From: a virus
Length of the DNA stretch: 21,565 nucleotides
Virus record (IMG/VR): IMGVR_UViG_3300009551_000126
Coordinates: 1-21,565 of that record
Reading direction: 5' to 3' (one strand)
Part shown: piece by piece, positions 44 through 18,321 of the stretch
Numbering within the stretch: the first letter of the stretch is position 1
Layout: the number at the start of each line of letters is the position of its first letter
Notes under the pieces: model-generated
What the model saw: the letters and a program-made list of their open reading frames with translations, nothing else
Told to the model about the DNA's origin: nothing
Database searches by the model: none
Translations under genes and position numbers: made by a program

Positions 44-1633
44 GTGTGCGGAATCTTTGGTGTAATTCAGAACGATCCTGATAAGAAAACAATGGCGGCT
101 TTGTGCAGGTATATGCATCAAGCATGCCATGTCGGCATCTTTCGAGGAAATGACAGCACAGGTCTTTTCCAAGTCCAAGAACACAAAGACGATGTATTTG
201 TGCATAAGCTTCCCATTTCTGGGGAATATATGGCCAGCACTCGTCGAGCAGAGCAGATTTTCAATCTGGCAGACGAATACCCAATTACTATAGGCCATCA
301 TCGCGCTGCCACGCGTGGTGCTGTAAGTCTAGAGAATTGTCATCCATTTGAACATTATGACACTGAAAATTATCTGATAGGTGTCCATAATGGTTCCTTC
401 AATGGGTGGAAGTCGGATGAAGACAAGATACACTTCAATGTCGATTCGGATTGGGGCTTGTATCAAATCTGGAAACACGGTGATCTTGACGGACTGAGCC
501 GCCTCGATGGAGCATACGCTCTCGTTTGGTATCGCAATGACGGGAAAATCCGAGTTGCGTGTAATGCTGAGCGAGAATTCCATTGGGGATTTGTCCGCGG
601 CAAGAATGCTATGGTCATGGCCTCTGAGCATCCGATGATGTACTGGCTAGCTGATCGCAATGGATTAGAGTTGGAAGATCCAATTTGCTATCCAGCCAAA
701 GGCAAGATGTTTACATTCGATCCGAACAATGTACGAGACTTTAAGGAGGAAGTCATCCCGGAGCGCCCAAAAGCGCAAGTAGGGTTCCGGCCACACACAG
801 CGAATTCTCGTCAGACCTCAGCCACTGGGATCGCTTGTTTGCCGAATCCGAATTCTACTGCGGCTAATAATTCGGAATCTTACGAAGAGAGCTGGGAACG
901 CGCGCTAAGGAATCGTGAGAAGCGAGAAGGAGATGGCCCTAATTACGGCGCATCTGGGGACGATCACACTTCGCTATTTGACGTTCTTCCGCCTAATCAC
1001 ACAGAATCGGGGCACTTTATCCATTTCTCTAAGGACCAAGTCCTTGCAAGATTGAACATTAATTTGGGTGATGTAGCGGAATTTTATCCGGACAAGACTG
1101 TTCTTGCTAATAGGCGCAGGGAATCTACGGAACTGCCGGGAACGATTATTGTTGGAAATGAAGTACAACGCGCATTGATGACCGATCTTACTCCAGCAAT
1201 TTTCTACAACTTGGAGACGCTCGCTCAGCAAGAACGCATCATCGAAGCACGCGTACTCGGAGTTGCTAAGTGTCCGCCGGCAGTAGGAAGCATTAGTCCG
1301 GCGTGGGAAGAAGTGGCTATCATAGGCCGTCCACTAAAAACTTGGGTAAGAGACCGTACTACCAACATCATTGTCCCAGAATCGGCTACTGTGGATGATG
1401 GTGGGGAAGATGAGGTTTCTGGCACGGCGAAAGTACCGGGACCTAACGGAAAGCAAATCTTGTTGAGGGATTTTTTAGTCATGGTTAAGGATGGATGCGC
1501 GGAATGCTCCGCTCCTTTTGAAATTAAGGACGCTCTAAACGGTAAAATAGTTTGGGCTGGAAGTGATGTTGGAAAGCCCAGCCCTTTGTGCAAGGTTTGT
1601 GCAAAGCACCATTTCGGCGGAGTGGCGGCATAA
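44..1633 (+). CDS. Class II glutamine amidotransferase with unassigned C-terminal half
   Basis: The GTG start follows AGGAG (29-33) and places Cys at position 2, the N-terminal nucleophile of class II (Ntn) glutaminases after Met removal. Visible family motifs are MCGIFG, RGNDSTG (34-40), GHHRAATRG (84-92), HNG (115-117), the Asp pair in VDSDWG (133-138), and LDGAYAL (154-160). Such domains hydrolyse glutamine and pass ammonia to a synthase domain. Here no sugar-isomerase, PRTase or asparagine-synthetase module is recognisable after about residue 230. The remaining ~300 residues are unassigned and end in a likely zinc site, C485-x2-C488 ... C516-x2-C519. The protein is 529 aa. The next gene begins 3 bases after the stop, so the ammonia acceptor could be the C-terminal half or a neighbour (inference). 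The glutaminase assignment is secure; the product is unknown. Confidence 0.9.
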   Translation: MCGIFGVIQNDPDKKTMAALCRYMHQACHVGIFRGNDSTGLFQVQEHKDDVFVHKLPISGEYMASTRRAEQIFNLADEYPITIGHHRAATRGAVSLENCHPFEHYDTENYLIGVHNGSFNGWKSDEDKIHFNVDSDWGLYQIWKHGDLDGLSRLDGAYALVWYRNDGKIRVACNAEREFHWGFVRGKNAMVMASEHPMMYWLADRNGLELEDPICYPAKGKMFTFDPNNVRDFKEEVIPERPKAQVGFRPHTANSRQTSATGIACLPNPNSTAANNSESYEESWERALRNREKREGDGPNYGASGDDHTSLFDVLPPNHTESGHFIHFSKDQVLARLNINLGDVAEFYPDKTVLANRRRESTELPGTIIVGNEVQRALMTDLTPAIFYNLETLAQQERIIEARVLGVAKCPPAVGSISPAWEEVAIIGRPLKTWVRDRTTNIIVPESATVDDGGEDEVSGTAKVPGPNGKQILLRDFLVMVKDGCAECSAPFEIKDALNGKIVWAGSDVGKPSPLCKVCAKHHFGGVAA

Positions 1634-7531: not shown

Positions 7532-7535
7532 AAAA

Positions 7536-7548
7536 GGAGGCTAATATT
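7536..7548 (+). promoter_or_regulatory. Ribosome site and probable ATT start of the DNA polymerase
   Basis: GGAGG (7536-7540) is followed five bases later by ATT (7546-7548), in frame with the polymerase. From the in-frame stop at 7522-7524 to TTG 7612 there is no in-frame ATG, GTG or TTG. The overlapping TTG at 7547 is in another frame and meets a stop after six codons. Confidence 0.55.
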
Positions 7549-9420
7549 GAACTACCTAAATTCCTAACTGATCCTAATCCGGAGATATTCCTTGAAGGCT
7601 CGTTTGTTTGCTTGGATTTCGAGACAAGTGTACTCGACAGCGGAAGTCCCCTCAATCCTAAAAATCGCATTCTGTGCGCTTGTTGGTGTGTTGTACATCG
7701 TGGCAAGTCTTGGAATGATAGCCGAAATGATAAACATATCCAATGGAAATCCGTAATAGGAGGAGAAAATGACCTCGAAGAACTCTTGCGAGACATTGCT
7801 TCCGTTGACTTCATCGTCGCCCACAATGCCAAGTTCGAACTCGGCTGGCTCAAAAGATGCGGGCTTGATCTCCGTTCCGTGCTCGTGTTCGATACATACC
7901 TTGGAGAGTGGGTGTTACTTGGGAACCTACGAGGTACAGGGCTCGGACTCAATGAAAGCGGCATTCGCCGGGGCTGCAAGACTAGCAAAGACGTTGTTGG
8001 AGGATGGATTCGTGGTGGGGTTGACAGTGAAAACATACCCCGACAATGGCTTCTCTATTACTGTTCACAAGACGTCGTACTAACAAGGGAACTTTTCCTA
8101 AAACAAGTTGTCCTATTACAGGAGCGGAAGCAACTACATCTAGTATATCAGCGTGGATTGGTATGTGCTTGCCTAGCTGATATAGAGTTTAACGGATTAA
8201 AGCTAGATAAATCAAGGGTTTACGAGGAACACGAACGTGTCCAAAAAGAATACATCGGAATCCGCAACGAACTTGATGCAGAGTTCGGAGCAATTAATTG
8301 GCGAAGTCCAAAGCAAGTATGTGAATTACTCTACAATGGTCTCGGATTTGATCCAGAGGACGATGAATCGCCTAGCGCGGCGAAAGATGCTATTGCCAAC
8401 CTCAAGCCCCGTAGTAAGACTCAAGCGAAGTTCTTAGAGCTTTACAAGAAAGCTGCTCATCTAAGTGCTCGATTAACCAAGAGTCTTAATTTCTTCAAGG
8501 GAGTTTGCGACGAATATGACGGAGTGTTCCACGGAGTATTTAACCAAGGGTTTACTCAAACCCACAGGCTCTCTAGCTCTGGACGTAAGCTTTCATTTAA
8601 GGACGGAACAAGCTCTGGAGCGCAATTTCAGAATCTGCCGAGAGAATACAAACGCCTATTTACTTCCAAACGGAAAGGCTGGCTTATCGGAGATTGCGAC
8701 AGCAGCGGTGTTGAGTTTCGTGTAGCCGCTGATCTTGGTGACGATCAAATAGCGAAGAAAGAGATAGCAGATGGAGAGGATATTCATTCTCACACTGTAA
8801 AAGCTTTCGCAGAGGCAGGAGAAATAATTTCTAGGCAAGATGCCAAGCCACAGACCTTCAAGCCACTATATGCGGGGCGCGGGCACACAGATGCAGAGCA
8901 AGCATACTGTAAGTTCTTTCAGAATAAGTACGAAGGGATATACAAGACACAAACGGAATGGGTACATCAAGTAGTAGCAAGTAAGATCGGAGAACTAATT
9001 ACACCGTACGGAATGAGGTTCTATTGGCCGGGAACAAAAGTCAATAGATATGGGTGGGCCGACAATACAACGTCGATCTTTAACTATAGTATACAGGGCT
9101 TCAGCACAGGCGAGATTCTTCCAATCGCCATCACTTTCTTTTGGCACCGAATAAAAGGACATGATATTGAGCTAGTAAATACTATTCACGATTCGGCTAT
9201 CTCGGAGATAGCTCCTAACGAAGCGGATTATGCTAAAGAAACTTACGTTCAATCTTTTACTAGAGACGTTTACAATTTCTTAGAGAGGTGTTATGGCTAC
9301 TCATTCAAAACACAGCTTGGCTGTGAAGTCAAAATCGGAGAGCACTGGGGAGAAGGACAAGGCGAAAAATTCAGCGTCGATCCAGGTGAAGGAAGGCATG
9401 ATTCAACTTCCACTAGCTAG
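7546..9420 (+). CDS. DNA polymerase, family A, with 3'-5' exonuclease domain
   Basis: Replicative polymerase of the T7 gp5/PolA type, 624 aa from the ATT start. The DEDD exonuclease domain shows LDFET (D24, E26), VAHNAKFELGWL and YYCSQDVVLTREL. In the polymerase domain, motif A is CDSSGVEFRVA with D385 and E390. Motif B is RQDAKPQTFKPLYAG with R430, K434, F438 and Y442; Phe at the O-helix position suggests discrimination against dideoxynucleotides. Motif C is TIHDSAI with D549, where the usual His-Asp-Glu is His-Asp-Ser. The first canonical start, TTG 7612, would remove the first exonuclease beta-strand (GSFVCLDFE), so an upstream start is needed and ATT 7546 is the best placed. The end overlaps the next gene. 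Confidence 0.93.
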   Translation: MELPKFLTDPNPEIFLEGSFVCLDFETSVLDSGSPLNPKNRILCACWCVVHRGKSWNDSRNDKHIQWKSVIGGENDLEELLRDIASVDFIVAHNAKFELGWLKRCGLDLRSVLVFDTYLGEWVLLGNLRGTGLGLNESGIRRGCKTSKDVVGGWIRGGVDSENIPRQWLLYYCSQDVVLTRELFLKQVVLLQERKQLHLVYQRGLVCACLADIEFNGLKLDKSRVYEEHERVQKEYIGIRNELDAEFGAINWRSPKQVCELLYNGLGFDPEDDESPSAAKDAIANLKPRSKTQAKFLELYKKAAHLSARLTKSLNFFKGVCDEYDGVFHGVFNQGFTQTHRLSSSGRKLSFKDGTSSGAQFQNLPREYKRLFTSKRKGWLIGDCDSSGVEFRVAADLGDDQIAKKEIADGEDIHSHTVKAFAEAGEIISRQDAKPQTFKPLYAGRGHTDAEQAYCKFFQNKYEGIYKTQTEWVHQVVASKIGELITPYGMRFYWPGTKVNRYGWADNTTSIFNYSIQGFSTGEILPIAITFFWHRIKGHDIELVNTIHDSAISEIAPNEADYAKETYVQSFTRDVYNFLERCYGYSFKTQLGCEVKIGEHWGEGQGEKFSVDPGEGRHDSTSTS

Positions 9421-11175: not shown

Positions 11176-13083
11176 TTGTCCGAAATTATAACGCCATGGT
11201 CCCCGATCGGATATATCGTTTACAAGAGAACTTATGCCAGACGGCTCGACGAAAACAATAGTAACAGTGCAACTGAAGAATGGAAAGACACTGTTGATAG
11301 AGTTGTGCGATCAACTGATGGACAACTTAATGTCGGATTTACAGAAGAAGAAAAAGATAGATTTCGTAACTATCTTCTCTCTTTGCGGGCTTCAGTTGCG
11401 GGAAGATTCCTCTGGCAACTTGGAACTTCGACTGTTCAACGACTCGGGCTATTAAGCCTACAGAATTGCGCAGCCGTAGCAGTTGACGAACCTATTCGGC
11501 CTTTCACATGGGCTATGGATGCCCTTATGTTGGGGTGCGGAGTAGGATTTAATATACAGAGAGAATATGTCTACAAACTGCCAAAAGTTAATTCAAGCTA
11601 TATCGGACCAAGTAGATTTGATTCGTCCTCTGCTGACTTCATTGTCCCCGATACTAGAGAGGGATGGATTAAGCTCCTCGAATATACTCTACGGTGCGCA
11701 TTTGACGATGATAGCAAAAGAGGATTTAGCTACTCGACCCAACTGGTCAGAGGGTCAGGAGCCGCAATTAAAGGATTTGGAGGTACAGCTAGCGGTCCTG
11801 AAATCCTATGTGAAGGCATTGGAAACATTAGTGAGATACTCAAGAATAGAATTGGAAAGCAACTCCGCCCAATAGACTGCCTCGATATAATGAATCTTAT
11901 CGGCTCAATTGTTGTAGCCGGTAACGTTCGTCGAAGTGCCCAGATAGCCATAGGAGATATGGATGATTTTCAGTACATTCGCTCCAAACGATGGGACCTT
12001 GGTAATATCCCCAATTGGAGAGCTAACTCCAATAACTCTGTGGTTTGCAACGACTTTGATCTTTTGCCCGAAGAAATCTGGCAAGGGTACATGGGAAATG
12101 GTGAGCCGTTCGGACTTATCAACCTACGTCTTTCCAGAAGGACGGGCCGCACGGGAGAAAACAATTATCCAGATAAAGAAGTTATTGGATTCAATCCGTG
12201 TGCAGAACAACCTCTCTGCAATTACGAAACTTGCTGTCTCGCTGAAATCTTCCTTCCCAACATCGAAGATAAAGATCAACTCCTTGATATAACAAAACTT
12301 CTTTATCGAGTATGCAAACATAGCCTTAATCTTCCTTGTCACAACAAAGAGACTGAAGAAATTGTTCACAAGAATCAGCGAATGGGAATCGGAATCACTG
12401 GCTATTTACAGAGCACCGACGAGCAACGTAGTTGGTTGGCTGGATGTTACGCACAGTTGCGGGCATTTGATGAGAAGTATTCGGACAGTAAAGGATTTCC
12501 AAGAAGCATTAAGCTTACTACAATCAAGCCGTCAGGAACCTTGTCTCTATTGCCGGGCGTTACACCGGGATGCCACCCTGCTTTTGGACAACATCTCATT
12601 CGACGGATACGTATCGCCTCAGACAGTAAATTGGTTGAAACTATTCGTGAAGCTGGTTACAAGGTCGAATACGCCCGCCATTTCGACGGATCAGACGATA
12701 GAGCGACTGTTGTCGCGGAATTTCCGTTCAACTACCCGAGCGGAACTAGATTGGCTAAAGACATGTCTGCAATTGATCAACTCGAAGTGGTTAAAAGATT
12801 GCAGAGCGAGTGGAGCGACAACGCAGTAAGCTGTACCATCTACTACAAGAAGGAGGAATTAGACGGAATAAAAGAGTACCTTAAGAAGAACTACAATAAA
12901 CACTTCAAGAGCCTCTCATTTCTGCTGCACTCTGAGCATGGCTTCGATCAAGCCCCCCTCGAAGAGATCACGGAAGAAGAATACAATAAATTAGTTAAGA
13001 AAGTAACACCAATTACCTCAGTATCGTCGGCTGAGTTTGAAAGTAACGACGAATGCGCAAGTGGCTACTGTCCTATCAAGTAA
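11176..13083 (+). CDS. nrdJ: Adenosylcobalamin-dependent ribonucleotide reductase (class II)
   Basis: Reduces ribonucleotides to deoxynucleotides for phage DNA synthesis, using coenzyme B12 to make the thiyl radical. Signatures match the monomeric Lactobacillus-type RTPR: LQNCAAVAVD with C98 (partner of the redox pair), NPCAEQ with radical C342 and E344, and CCLAE with C353, exactly 11 residues after C342 as C419 is after C408 in RTPR. Also present are KPSGTLSLLPGVTPGCHPAF and a C-terminal C-x4-C (CASGYC) reducing arm. At 635 aa it is about 100 shorter than the L. leichmannii enzyme (739). No NrdB or NrdG partner is visible, as expected for class II. TTG 11176 follows AGAGGAG (11162-11168). 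Confidence 0.93.
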   Translation: MSEIITPWSPIGYIVYKRTYARRLDENNSNSATEEWKDTVDRVVRSTDGQLNVGFTEEEKDRFRNYLLSLRASVAGRFLWQLGTSTVQRLGLLSLQNCAAVAVDEPIRPFTWAMDALMLGCGVGFNIQREYVYKLPKVNSSYIGPSRFDSSSADFIVPDTREGWIKLLEYTLRCAFDDDSKRGFSYSTQLVRGSGAAIKGFGGTASGPEILCEGIGNISEILKNRIGKQLRPIDCLDIMNLIGSIVVAGNVRRSAQIAIGDMDDFQYIRSKRWDLGNIPNWRANSNNSVVCNDFDLLPEEIWQGYMGNGEPFGLINLRLSRRTGRTGENNYPDKEVIGFNPCAEQPLCNYETCCLAEIFLPNIEDKDQLLDITKLLYRVCKHSLNLPCHNKETEEIVHKNQRMGIGITGYLQSTDEQRSWLAGCYAQLRAFDEKYSDSKGFPRSIKLTTIKPSGTLSLLPGVTPGCHPAFGQHLIRRIRIASDSKLVETIREAGYKVEYARHFDGSDDRATVVAEFPFNYPSGTRLAKDMSAIDQLEVVKRLQSEWSDNAVSCTIYYKKEELDGIKEYLKKNYNKHFKSLSFLLHSEHGFDQAPLEEITEEEYNKLVKKVTPITSVSSAEFESNDECASGYCPIK

Positions 13084-14434: not shown

Positions 14435-14936
14435 CGATCCAGAACGCGCCGGAGAGGAGTTCTCCAAGAAAGCGGTCGAACAATTCACGGCGGAACGCTT
14501 TAAAAGCGTTACGATCAATAGAGAGTACGAAGTTCCGTATACTGCTGGATACAGTAAAGACGGAAAAACTATCTACATTGATAGACATGTCCCGGATACA
14601 ATCTCTTATAGAGGAAAGAAATGCGATATCATAAAGCCTTTGGTGATGCACGAAACAACCGAGATATCTCTTGAATCCAAGCCGTATTTCGACAGTTATG
14701 AATTATCGCACGAAACTGCAACCATGGCTGAGTTTGCTCTTGTTCGGGCTATGGGCTTTGATGTGGTGGAATACAACAAGCAAGTAAACGAAATAGTTAA
14801 ACGTGTATATAGTAGGGCTAAGTATGAATCAATTCCGCCCGATCTTGATCTTGAGCCTTATTATGATGAAAAAGACTACAAGTGTCTAAAACGTATGGGC
14901 ATAACTGATGAGGAGAGTAATAAGAGTGAAGAATAA
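14412..14936 (+). CDS. Hypothetical protein with HExxE...H motif, possible metalloprotein
   Basis: 174 aa from TTG 14412, which has a strong AAGGAG (14399-14404) seven bases upstream, inside the HAD gene. The central region reads VMHETTEISL and then YELSHETATMAEFALV, i.e. HExxE followed ~20 residues later by another His and an Ala-rich helix, a spacing reminiscent of zinc metallopeptidase-like proteins. Catalytic ability is not certain because the classic HExxH is not kept. The C-terminus is acidic and charged. The remaining sequence has strands YTAGYSKDGKTIYIDRHVP. I know no name for the family. Confidence 0.7.
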   Translation: MSIRHRYDDPERAGEEFSKKAVEQFTAERFKSVTINREYEVPYTAGYSKDGKTIYIDRHVPDTISYRGKKCDIIKPLVMHETTEISLESKPYFDSYELSHETATMAEFALVRAMGFDVVEYNKQVNEIVKRVYSRAKYESIPPDLDLEPYYDEKDYKCLKRMGITDEESNKSEE

Positions 14937-15462
14937 GTTAATTGCATTGTGTGCTGGTCTTTTGCTGAGCTTTAGTGTAGCATCTCACGCCGCTAAGACT
15001 GAAGATCCGTTTGAATTTAAGCGTCCCGTTCCTAAAGTTTCCGATCAGATGTATAAGGAAGCTGTTAAGGAATACAATGACGGCAATGTTAATGCCAAGT
15101 TGTTCTTGGACGGCATGAGGAAGGGATGGAAGGCTAATGAAGCCCGCGAAGGGCTTGATGAGCCGGAAGACATCTTCATGGGATGTGTTCTGTTTCAAGT
15201 TGGCGGCATGAAGGCTTTGAACGAAATTAACTTCGACCATACAGCAAGAGTTCTAGCTGGTGGCCCGAAGGAAGATGGAACTGGCAATTACGGTGAAACG
15301 GATGCAAAAAACCTAGTCCAGTCTTGGAATGAAGACCAGAAAGCTACCGCCGTGCGGCTATATGTCTTCATGGAAGAGTACGGAGAGGATTGCTACAGGC
15401 TAGTCCATCAAGGATTTACTGCCGGTATTCCCAAGCTTCCTGTCAATGAGGTGAAGAATTAA
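14926..15462 (+). CDS. Secreted (signal-peptide) hypothetical protein
   Basis: 178 aa from GTG 14926, preceded by GAGGAG (14910-14915) inside the end of the previous gene; ATG 14908 is an alternative that would put the ribosome site inside the coding region. The N-terminus has a basic start, a hydrophobic core (LIALCAGLLLSFSV) and a likely signal peptidase I site after ASHA. The mature protein is charged, with two cysteines (in FMGCVLF and EDCYRL) that could pair in the periplasm, and a helical pattern similar to small periplasmic proteins. It may act on the host envelope or periplasm; function unknown. Confidence 0.7.
   Translation: MKNKLIALCAGLLLSFSVASHAAKTEDPFEFKRPVPKVSDQMYKEAVKEYNDGNVNAKLFLDGMRKGWKANEAREGLDEPEDIFMGCVLFQVGGMKALNEINFDHTARVLAGGPKEDGTGNYGETDAKNLVQSWNEDQKATAVRLYVFMEEYGEDCYRLVHQGFTAGIPKLPVNEVKN
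15448..15460 (+). promoter_or_regulatory. Ribosome site and probable ATT start of the exonuclease
   Basis: GAGG (15448-15451), within GAGGTGA, precedes ATT (15458-15460) by six bases; ATT shares a base with the preceding TAA. The exonuclease frame is open from 15455 but holds no ATG, GTG or TTG until TTG 15671, which lies beyond the first catalytic Asp. ATC 15485 is the other near-cognate option. Confidence 0.5.
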
Positions 15463-16252
15463 GGGACCAGATCTAAGTAAGAAAATCGTTGGGCTAGTTG
15501 ATGCGGACGTACTCTTATTTCGCACTTGCTTTGCAGCGGAGAAGAAACGAGAAGTACGTAATAATAGCGATGATACCGAATTTGAGCTAAAGAGAGAAGT
15601 AGCGCCTCTCTCTCATGCCCTACAGAACACCGAAACGGTAATCAAAGAGCTATACAAAATATTCGATTCATTGGAGTTTTATCTAAGTGGCAAAAAGAAC
15701 TTTCGGAAAGAAATCGCAACAATTAAGCCGTACAAAGGAAATCGTTCCGAATTCCAGCGACCTGTGCATCTCAATGACGCTAGAGATTTCCTCGTCAATA
15801 AATACGATGCAATCGTTACGGATGGAGTGGAAGCAGATGACGCCCTCGGAATTCGAGCGACTTCTGGACAGCGTGAAGACGGACGTGTCTTCTGTATTGT
15901 CAGCAATGACAAAGACCTAAAACAGATACCGGGACTTCACTACAACTGGGTTAAGAAGGAATGGGACGAAGTAAGTGAAAGAGAAGCGTTACGTTCATTC
16001 TATCGGCAACTACTTACTGGAGACGCCACTGACAACATCCCCGGCGTGGAAGGTATCGGTACTGCTAACGCCCACAAAATCATTGATCCTTTTACAAAGG
16101 AACAAGGAATGTGGCAGACGGTGCTCGAAGAATACACCGAGCGATATCCAAATGGATACTACAATAAATCAGTTAAAAATGCGCTCCTTGAACTAGGACA
16201 ACTATTGTGGATACAAAGGACAAATCGAGTAAGGTGGGAACCGCCTAAGTGA
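15458..16252 (+). CDS. 5'-3' exonuclease (T7 gp6 / FEN-like)
   Basis: Removes RNA primers and degrades DNA 5'-3' during phage replication. From ATT 15458 it is 264 aa. The N-terminal metal-binding strand IVGLVDADVLLFR (D15, D17) lies upstream of the first canonical start. Then come NFRKEIATIKPYKGNR (arch/active-site basic residues), VEADDALG (E125, D127, D128), CIVSNDKDLKQIPG and the helix-hairpin element GDATDNIPGVEGIG. The C-terminal GQLLWIQRTN resembles T7 gp6. If TTG 15671 were used, the protein would lack the first catalytic strand and be inactive. The stop overlaps the endonuclease start as GTGA, so the two nucleases are coupled. Confidence 0.9.
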   Translation: MKGPDLSKKIVGLVDADVLLFRTCFAAEKKREVRNNSDDTEFELKREVAPLSHALQNTETVIKELYKIFDSLEFYLSGKKNFRKEIATIKPYKGNRSEFQRPVHLNDARDFLVNKYDAIVTDGVEADDALGIRATSGQREDGRVFCIVSNDKDLKQIPGLHYNWVKKEWDEVSEREALRSFYRQLLTGDATDNIPGVEGIGTANAHKIIDPFTKEQGMWQTVLEEYTERYPNGYYNKSVKNALLELGQLLWIQRTNRVRWEPPK

Positions 16253-17306: not shown

Positions 17307-17569
17307 TGAGAAAAGATGAAGAAATAGAGTACGCAGAGCTGCTTAAGCTTGCCTATCAAGCAGATAGAGATTTTAATAAGTGGGATGAAGAGGATACCGC
17401 TAAATACGGCCAGCATCTTGGATATGATGGGCGCGATGGCGGAGAGCCGGAATATCCGCCGGAATCTCCCATTGATTTTAAGGTGAAGGGAGAAATCCTT
17501 AAAACTAAGAAAACTCTTGCTTGGCAAGCGGTAAAAAACTTCAAGGTTAATTTGGGAATTAGTTCTTGA
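17306..17569 (+). CDS. Small acidic hypothetical protein (87 aa)
   Basis: ATG 17306 overlaps the preceding TAA. Highly charged, helix-rich N-terminal half (DEEIEYAELLKLAYQADRDF), a Gly/Pro loop (GYDGRDGGEPEYPPESP), then a basic C-terminal strand and helix. Its stop overlaps the TTG start of the exonuclease gene. Not recognised; a binding partner or regulator of that exonuclease is conceivable only from position. Confidence 0.6.
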   Translation: MRKDEEIEYAELLKLAYQADRDFNKWDEEDTAKYGQHLGYDGRDGGEPEYPPESPIDFKVKGEILKTKKTLAWQAVKNFKVNLGISS

Positions 17570-18321
17570 ACAGCCCGCGTTTGCTCGTGCTCGACATAGA
17601 AAATTCATATTTGCTTGCGGGCACTTGGGGTCTTTGGAATCAGAACATTAACTTGGATCTTTTGCTCGATTACGGCAAAGTTCTTAGTGTAGCTGCCAAG
17701 TGGATTGGCGAAAAGAGTATCATCTTCCATAAGTGCGATGATAAAGGATTCCACAAAAGCATCTGGAAGCTCTTAGATGAAGCTGATGCAGTAATTACGT
17801 ACAACGGACGAAAGCACGATATTCCACTTCTTAATCGAGAACTCTTAAAAGAGGGGCTAGGTCCGTACAGTCCAATTAAGCACATAGACCTTCTTGAAAC
17901 CATGAAGAAGCAATTCAAGTTTCCGAGCAATAAACTAGCCCATATAACAGAAGAGTTAGGTCTCGGAAAGAAGCTCGATCACGGCGGATTCCAGCTTTGG
18001 GTTAATTGCTTAAAGGGCGATGAAGATGCTTGGAAAAAGATGGAGAAGTACAATAAGCAGGATGTACGGCTTACTGAAAAACTATTTCACAAGGTTCGTG
18101 CTTGGTGCAATCTTGTTGTTAACTACGCTCTTTATAGTAGCAACGGTGATGTACTTTGTCCTCATTGCGGTAGCGATCATCTCCATAAGCGAGGTTATTA
18201 CAGGACAACGTCTGCCATCTACCAGAAATTCAACTGTCAAGTATGCAAAGGATGGTCAAGGACTAGGTATACGGAAGTAACCAAGGAAGAGCGTAAGAAT
18301 ATCTTGGTAAAAGCAAATTGA
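17566..18321 (+). CDS. DEDDy 3'-5' exonuclease-like protein with C-terminal zinc ribbon
   Basis: 251 aa. RNase H-fold exonuclease motifs are visible: LVLDIEN (D10, E12), VITYNGRKHDIPLLN (D85) and YNKQDVRLTEKL (Y162, D166, the tyrosine-type motif III). IKHIDLL (D108) sits between. This resembles the predicted PolB-like/YprB-type exonuclease group. A C-terminal zinc ribbon follows: C198-x2-C201 ... C224-x2-C227, with the Gly/aromatic spacing of transposase-type ribbons (KRGYYRT ... KFNCQVC), a probable nucleic-acid-binding module. The phage polymerase has its own exonuclease domain, so this is a second DEDD nuclease. TTG 17566 overlaps the preceding stop as TTGA. Confidence 0.87.
   Translation: MNSPRLLVLDIENSYLLAGTWGLWNQNINLDLLLDYGKVLSVAAKWIGEKSIIFHKCDDKGFHKSIWKLLDEADAVITYNGRKHDIPLLNRELLKEGLGPYSPIKHIDLLETMKKQFKFPSNKLAHITEELGLGKKLDHGGFQLWVNCLKGDEDAWKKMEKYNKQDVRLTEKLFHKVRAWCNLVVNYALYSSNGDVLCPHCGSDHLHKRGYYRTTSAIYQKFNCQVCKGWSRTRYTEVTKEERKNILVKAN

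Follow-up and report, generated by a model that had tools for sequence, protein, structure and literature searches.

Probable AUU start codons at the exonuclease and DNA polymerase genes of a StenR_269-like podophage

The exonuclease and DNA polymerase genes

The stretch of viral DNA analysed here (the window; 21,565 nucleotides, positions 1 to 21,565 of IMG/VR virus record IMGVR_UViG_3300009551_000126) carries on its plus strand a gene for a 5'-3' exonuclease of 264 aa (15458..16252), recognized by its 5_3_exonuc_N Pfam match and by tblastn homologs. PF02739 (5_3_exonuc_N) matches residues 13-166 of the protein (1e-10, 42.0 bits against a cut-off of 34.3), and the N-terminal resolvase-like domain with its catalytic Asp strand is present by Pfam; PF01367 reaches 31.3 bits, below its cut-off of 40. 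The first catalytic strand, IVGLVDADVLLFR, is encoded at 15485-15523 (plus strand). The reading frame is closed by TGA at 15452-15454 and open from 15455 (AGA ATT AAG GGA CCA GAT CTA AGT AAG AAA ATC GTT GGG CTA GTT GAT GCG GAC), and its earliest ATG, GTG or TTG is the TTG at 15671, downstream of the catalytic strand. These positions of the frame, the strand and the TTG had been given in an initial annotation of the DNA, and all of them held on re-reading. Of the 174 non-redundant loci of this gene, the window alone combines an unbroken frame with the absence of ATG, GTG and TTG before the catalytic strand (flagged rows, checked by eye).

The sole well-placed start upstream of the catalytic strand is an ATT at 15458..15460 (plus strand), which the initial annotation had already named as the likely start. 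It lies six bases after the GAGG of a Shine-Dalgarno (SD) sequence whose match is longer than first noted: GAGGTGA at 15448..15454 (plus strand), with a predicted pairing energy of -9.9 kcal/mol with the 16S tail. This SD sits within the end of the upstream gene (14908..15462, plus strand), whose product has, by eye, an apparent signal peptide and whose stop codon TAA (15460-15462) shares one base with the ATT. That overlap was absent from the initial annotation, as were two further in-frame codons, ATC 15485 and ATG 15446, considered below.

The initial annotation had also claimed that a second replication enzyme of the window shares this start class, and this proved correct. The family A DNA polymerase with a 3'-5' exonuclease domain (7546..9420, plus strand; DNA_pol_A, PF00476, 1.4e-27, 97.1 bits) has an ATT start at 7546..7548 behind the SD AAGGAGG (7534..7540, plus strand; -11.6 kcal/mol), and its frame holds no earlier ATG, GTG or TTG. 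The N-terminal motif LPxF, invariant in six aligned polymerases, stands in the window directly 3' of the ATT.

Start codons in related phages

Scanning viral contigs with single proteins gave no matches for the exonuclease and the helicase and one relative for the polymerase; wider relatives were obtained through alignment queries instead. Gene by gene, the window was then compared with StenR_269 and with twelve related virus records, thirteen genomes in all; genomes G001, G002, G003, G004, G005, G007 and G010 correspond to L007, L091, L092, L093, L008, L096 and L009, respectively.

The polymerase of the window is 43.5% identical (tblastn) to that of StenR_269, an isolated Stenotrophomonas phage sequenced at 405x coverage; unlike ours, its published annotation places the polymerase start further downstream, at an ATG, without remarking on start codons (PMC10747016). 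The tblastn homology opens 16 codons 5' of that annotated ATG (22039 of its record), and the sole in-frame start in the additional stretch is an ATT at 11992 of L003, which is 21982 of the record, with AGGAGG four bases earlier. The published start is too late and loses the conserved motif; the protein should begin at the upstream ATT (L003:11992-12051). Among the other relatives, from IMG/VR and one contig of a metagenome-assembled genome, the polymerase starts with ATA in L087 and L007, with ATA or ATT in L091 and with ATC in L093 and L008. The AUH class (AUU, AUC or AUA) is kept at this gene across divergent relatives, and its three codons interchange.

In the polymerase tree, the window falls in a six-row clade with L007, L091, L092, L008 and L093 (support 100/99), and StenR_269 and L087 are sisters in a neighbouring clade. 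Seven of the 107 non-redundant polymerase loci have no canonical start, six of them within one 18-row clade (support 100/99). L064, which likewise has no canonical start, was not counted as an AUH case, having no clear SD and lying outside the clade. An indel or frameshift was considered for L008 and rejected, its sister L093 having an aligned ATC start.

The class-II glutamine amidotransferase (44..1633, plus strand) starts with GTG in the window and with ATT at the same position in three relatives. In this enzyme class, the nucleophilic Cys directly follows the initiator Met. Across 11 genomes, the codon preceding the catalytic Cys is ATG in seven; the window has GTG there, and G001, G004 and G005 have ATT. 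GATase_6 scored above its cut-off in both amidotransferase proteins scanned. With the Cys position fixing the start codon, this gene is, as judged from sequence, the clearest proof and the best yardstick of AUH starts. The DnaQ-like (RNase_H_2) exonuclease (17566..18321, plus strand) has ATC in G004, G005, G010 and G011, against ATG or TTG at this position in three further genomes; the start in the window is TTG. At both genes the start class is kept across divergent relatives. The class-II ribonucleotide reductase (RNR; 11176..13083, plus strand) starts with TTG in the window, and that of G010 has ATA behind AAGGAGGTGA. The genes with AUH starts serve replication and nucleotide metabolism.

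For the 16 AUH starts the median SD energy is -9.2 kcal/mol, against -5.4 for ATG, -5.95 for GTG and -3.8 for TTG (p = 1.3e-7), a comparison that is partly biased in that SD spacing helped to choose some of the AUH starts. The amidotransferase positions escape this bias because they are fixed by enzyme chemistry. Random internal AUH codons of the same genomes have an SD energy of -3.1, and 3.2% of them reach the AUH-start median of -9.2.

Two of the genes show other irregularities in relatives. The DnaQ-like frame of G003 (minus strand, ~16714 on the reverse complement) contains an in-frame TGA (ITR*WTDED), flanked on each side by homologous sequence. The RNR gene is interrupted by non-homologous sequence in G001 (minus strand, 46148 on the reverse complement) and in G007 (25934); the interruptions are probably introns or homing elements.

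Interpretation and alternative explanations

We consider it probable, at roughly 85%, that the exonuclease is translated from AUU 15458 and the polymerase from AUU 7546, both as part of a set of AUH-start genes with strong SDs in a clade of StenR_269-like podophages. On the sequence evidence, each AUH codon is either the sole start available or the one with the best placement, and AUH exchanges positionally with AUG, GUG and UUG between relatives. The AUH starts look like retained translational control and not like a sequencing slip, in agreement with the initial annotation, which had argued against chance error.

Several points weigh against this reading. The relatives are mostly metagenome contigs, StenR_269 being the only isolate. 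The initial annotation had asked whether ATT is kept at both genes; the class is kept at the polymerase, as AUU, AUC or AUA, and the exonuclease ATT is specific to the window, its relatives having ATG, GTG or a frame broken by a conserved TAG. Since the start class is not conserved at the exonuclease, the case for this gene taken alone cannot draw on conservation, and ATC 15485 would likewise yield a plausible N-terminus. The AUH calls are not unique for the DnaQ-like genes of G005 and G010, in which residue 5 or 4 has a canonical start codon, nor for the L007 polymerase, which has an extra in-frame TTG (no SD). A search of the related phages for genes with IF3_C or RF-1 domains found none, and no clear initiator-type tRNA was found in them.

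Initiation of the exonuclease at ATC 15485 would still use an AUH codon and would shorten the protein by nine residues, to begin MVGLVDADVLL. The codon is in frame and many relatives start M-x-x-L-[VI]-D, a length that the shorter form would match; its SD, however, reaches just -3.5 kcal/mol against -9.9 for ATT 15458, with AAGGGA 18 bases off, and we regard this start as unlikely. A sequencing or assembly error masking a true ATG at 15458, at 7546 or at both would need one substitution at each site, and the window derives from just one virus record. Against such an error, AUH starts recur at the polymerase, amidotransferase, DnaQ-like and RNR genes in independent contigs and in the isolate StenR_269, always with strong SDs, which makes it highly improbable.

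Two further explanations invoke recoding. Translation might begin at ATG 15446, in the exonuclease frame (ATG AGG TGA, 15446..15454, plus strand), and pass the TGA by readthrough or by a stop-hop (AGG-TGA-AGA); Arg codons stand on both sides of the TGA, and other phages of the group have their frame broken at the exonuclease start. The SD energy before this ATG is -2.9 kcal/mol, which amounts to none. In the window, the hairpin that the frame-breaking phages form at the start codon lacks significance: 7/8 pairs form, a level reached by 57 of 142 loci. We judged the ATG not to be a start and consider this route very unlikely. A +1 frameshift at the upstream stop (AAT TAA G) would fuse the upstream protein to the exonuclease; the two frames are offset by +1, and the stop is closely preceded by an SD-like GAGG, as in prfB. 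Such a fusion is hardly credible: the apparent signal peptide of the upstream protein would export it, none was seen in relatives, and the SD with the ATT is sufficient.

Exonuclease genes split by TAG in other phages

In seven divergent phages the exonuclease gene is split by a TAG together with a frame offset of 5 nt: L091 (17360-17420), L007 (18110-18165), L096 (20745-20800), L097 (18849-18905), L098 (3870-3920), L130 (1650-1715) and L132 (minus strand, ~1394-1415). Each begins at an ordinary start, runs into ..[LI]VD[S/A/GD], meets the TAG and continues in another frame five bases on. The motif GAC NNN TAG NN GAY falls on the first catalytic strand (in L098, a codon further on), and deleting TAGNN exactly restores VDxD[IF] in 7/7 cases. 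Its six-phage form is unique to the exonuclease site in 14 genomes. Among the 174 non-redundant exonuclease loci no other frame breaks were seen at the same place, and the window has no split.

The stop adjoins the take-off codon and the frame break is conserved in all seven, as would be expected of programmed bypassing. Take-off and landing codons encode the same amino acid in L097, L132 and L098 and change from GCY to GTT in L096 and L130 and from TCC to GCC in L007 and L091. A hairpin can be drawn in all seven between GTC-N-AT[G/C]A of the start region and GT-N'-GAC of the Val-Asp codons (56/56 pairs), in which the N column covaries (C-G, T-A, A-T). The same hairpin is also perfect at the exonuclease loci L142, L149, L150, L151 and L166. 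Downstream of the TAG sites RNA structure gave no consistent signal, with the segments of G002 and G009 offset because an earlier TAG within the motif had been marked.

Shifting by -1 or simply by +2 at the TAG would match more poorly than +5, giving bad re-pairing and adding one or two residues. A +5 stop-hop over the TAG fits the sequences best and is a candidate programmed ribosome hop. The split supports special translational control of the exonuclease among these phages, for which the window would use another device.

Proposed mechanism

Noncanonical starts are repressed by initiation factor 3 (IF3), and infC carries such a start itself: ATT in the E. coli gene, ATC in that of Streptomyces (PMC5472188). 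For AUU, AUC and AUA, the single mismatch with tRNA-fMet and discrimination by IF3 have been described (PMC2268962). At the phage genes, initiator tRNA-fMet would start at the AUH codon with one mismatch, for which the strong SD would compensate. Host IF3 may hold output low or, as with infC, may permit it to rise when infected cells run short of the factor. Where the AUH codon lies on or near an upstream stop, termination-reinitiation may assist. By analogy with infC and sigR, translation from the AUH starts is probably low or gated by IF3, as the initial annotation had suggested; with no IF3, RF1-type factor or clear initiator tRNA found in the phages searched, a gate of this kind would have to rely on host factors.

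A phage initiator tRNA was considered as a cause and rejected. Genes for tRNA-Met(CAT) occur in L091, L093, L008 and L009, and those of the first three resemble tRNA-Ile2, which decodes AUA (loop CTCATAA, G1-C72). The L009 tRNA has three anticodon-stem G-C pairs, yet shares G1-C72 and the loop CTCATAA. An Rfam search of the window gave no matches.

A speculative extension, which we hold to be possible but doubtful, is that the clade gates its replication genes in two ways: by IF3-held AUH starts (polymerase, amidotransferase, DnaQ-like and RNR genes and the exonuclease of the window) and, in sisters, by a UAG hop at the exonuclease (GAC NNN TAG NN GAY). Replication would then rise only once initiation and termination factors become limiting, late in takeover.

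Discussion

The phages described here are StenR_269-like podophages, near Zobellviridae (PMC10747016): they share the gene set and the polymerase clade of StenR_269, whose polymerase has an ATT. Our search of the literature on AUU and other non-AUG starts in phages found nothing on this clade. The closest parallels are infC (AUU/AUC, autocontrol by IF3) and sigR (GTC, Streptomyces; PMC5472188), in which an IF3-discriminated start is likewise kept within a gene family, at a dose-sensitive gene whose start was missed or misplaced by annotation. Unlike infC, the genes here serve replication and nucleotide metabolism in phages, and one clade has several of them; AUU, AUC and AUA replace one another, there is no autoregulatory logic, and any dependence on IF3 is putative.

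The split exonucleases of the relatives resemble the bypassing in gene 60 of T4, as well as synthetic stop-hops, in having UAG beside the take-off codon and a frame that resumes downstream (PMC5009743); they differ from gene 60 in a gap of ~5 nt instead of 50, in a +2 frame change and in an imperfect landing match in 4/7. The finding of bypassing with a regulatory function would, according to the same review, be of interest (PMC5009743).

Gene 26 of T4 has an internal AUU start that yields a shorter product; it too is a case of AUU initiation in a phage gene, but internal and not, as here, the primary start. To our knowledge, well-studied genes with AUH starts are few, infC being the textbook case, and gene callers accept only ATG, GTG and TTG, so that AUH-start genes are truncated or lost, as with the published StenR_269 polymerase.

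The clade offers a natural experiment on start-codon choice, in which AUU, AUC and AUA trade with AUG at positions fixed by chemistry. IF3 activity would be a possible switch for phage replication, and the TAG-split exonucleases, if confirmed, would represent a natural short ribosome hop.
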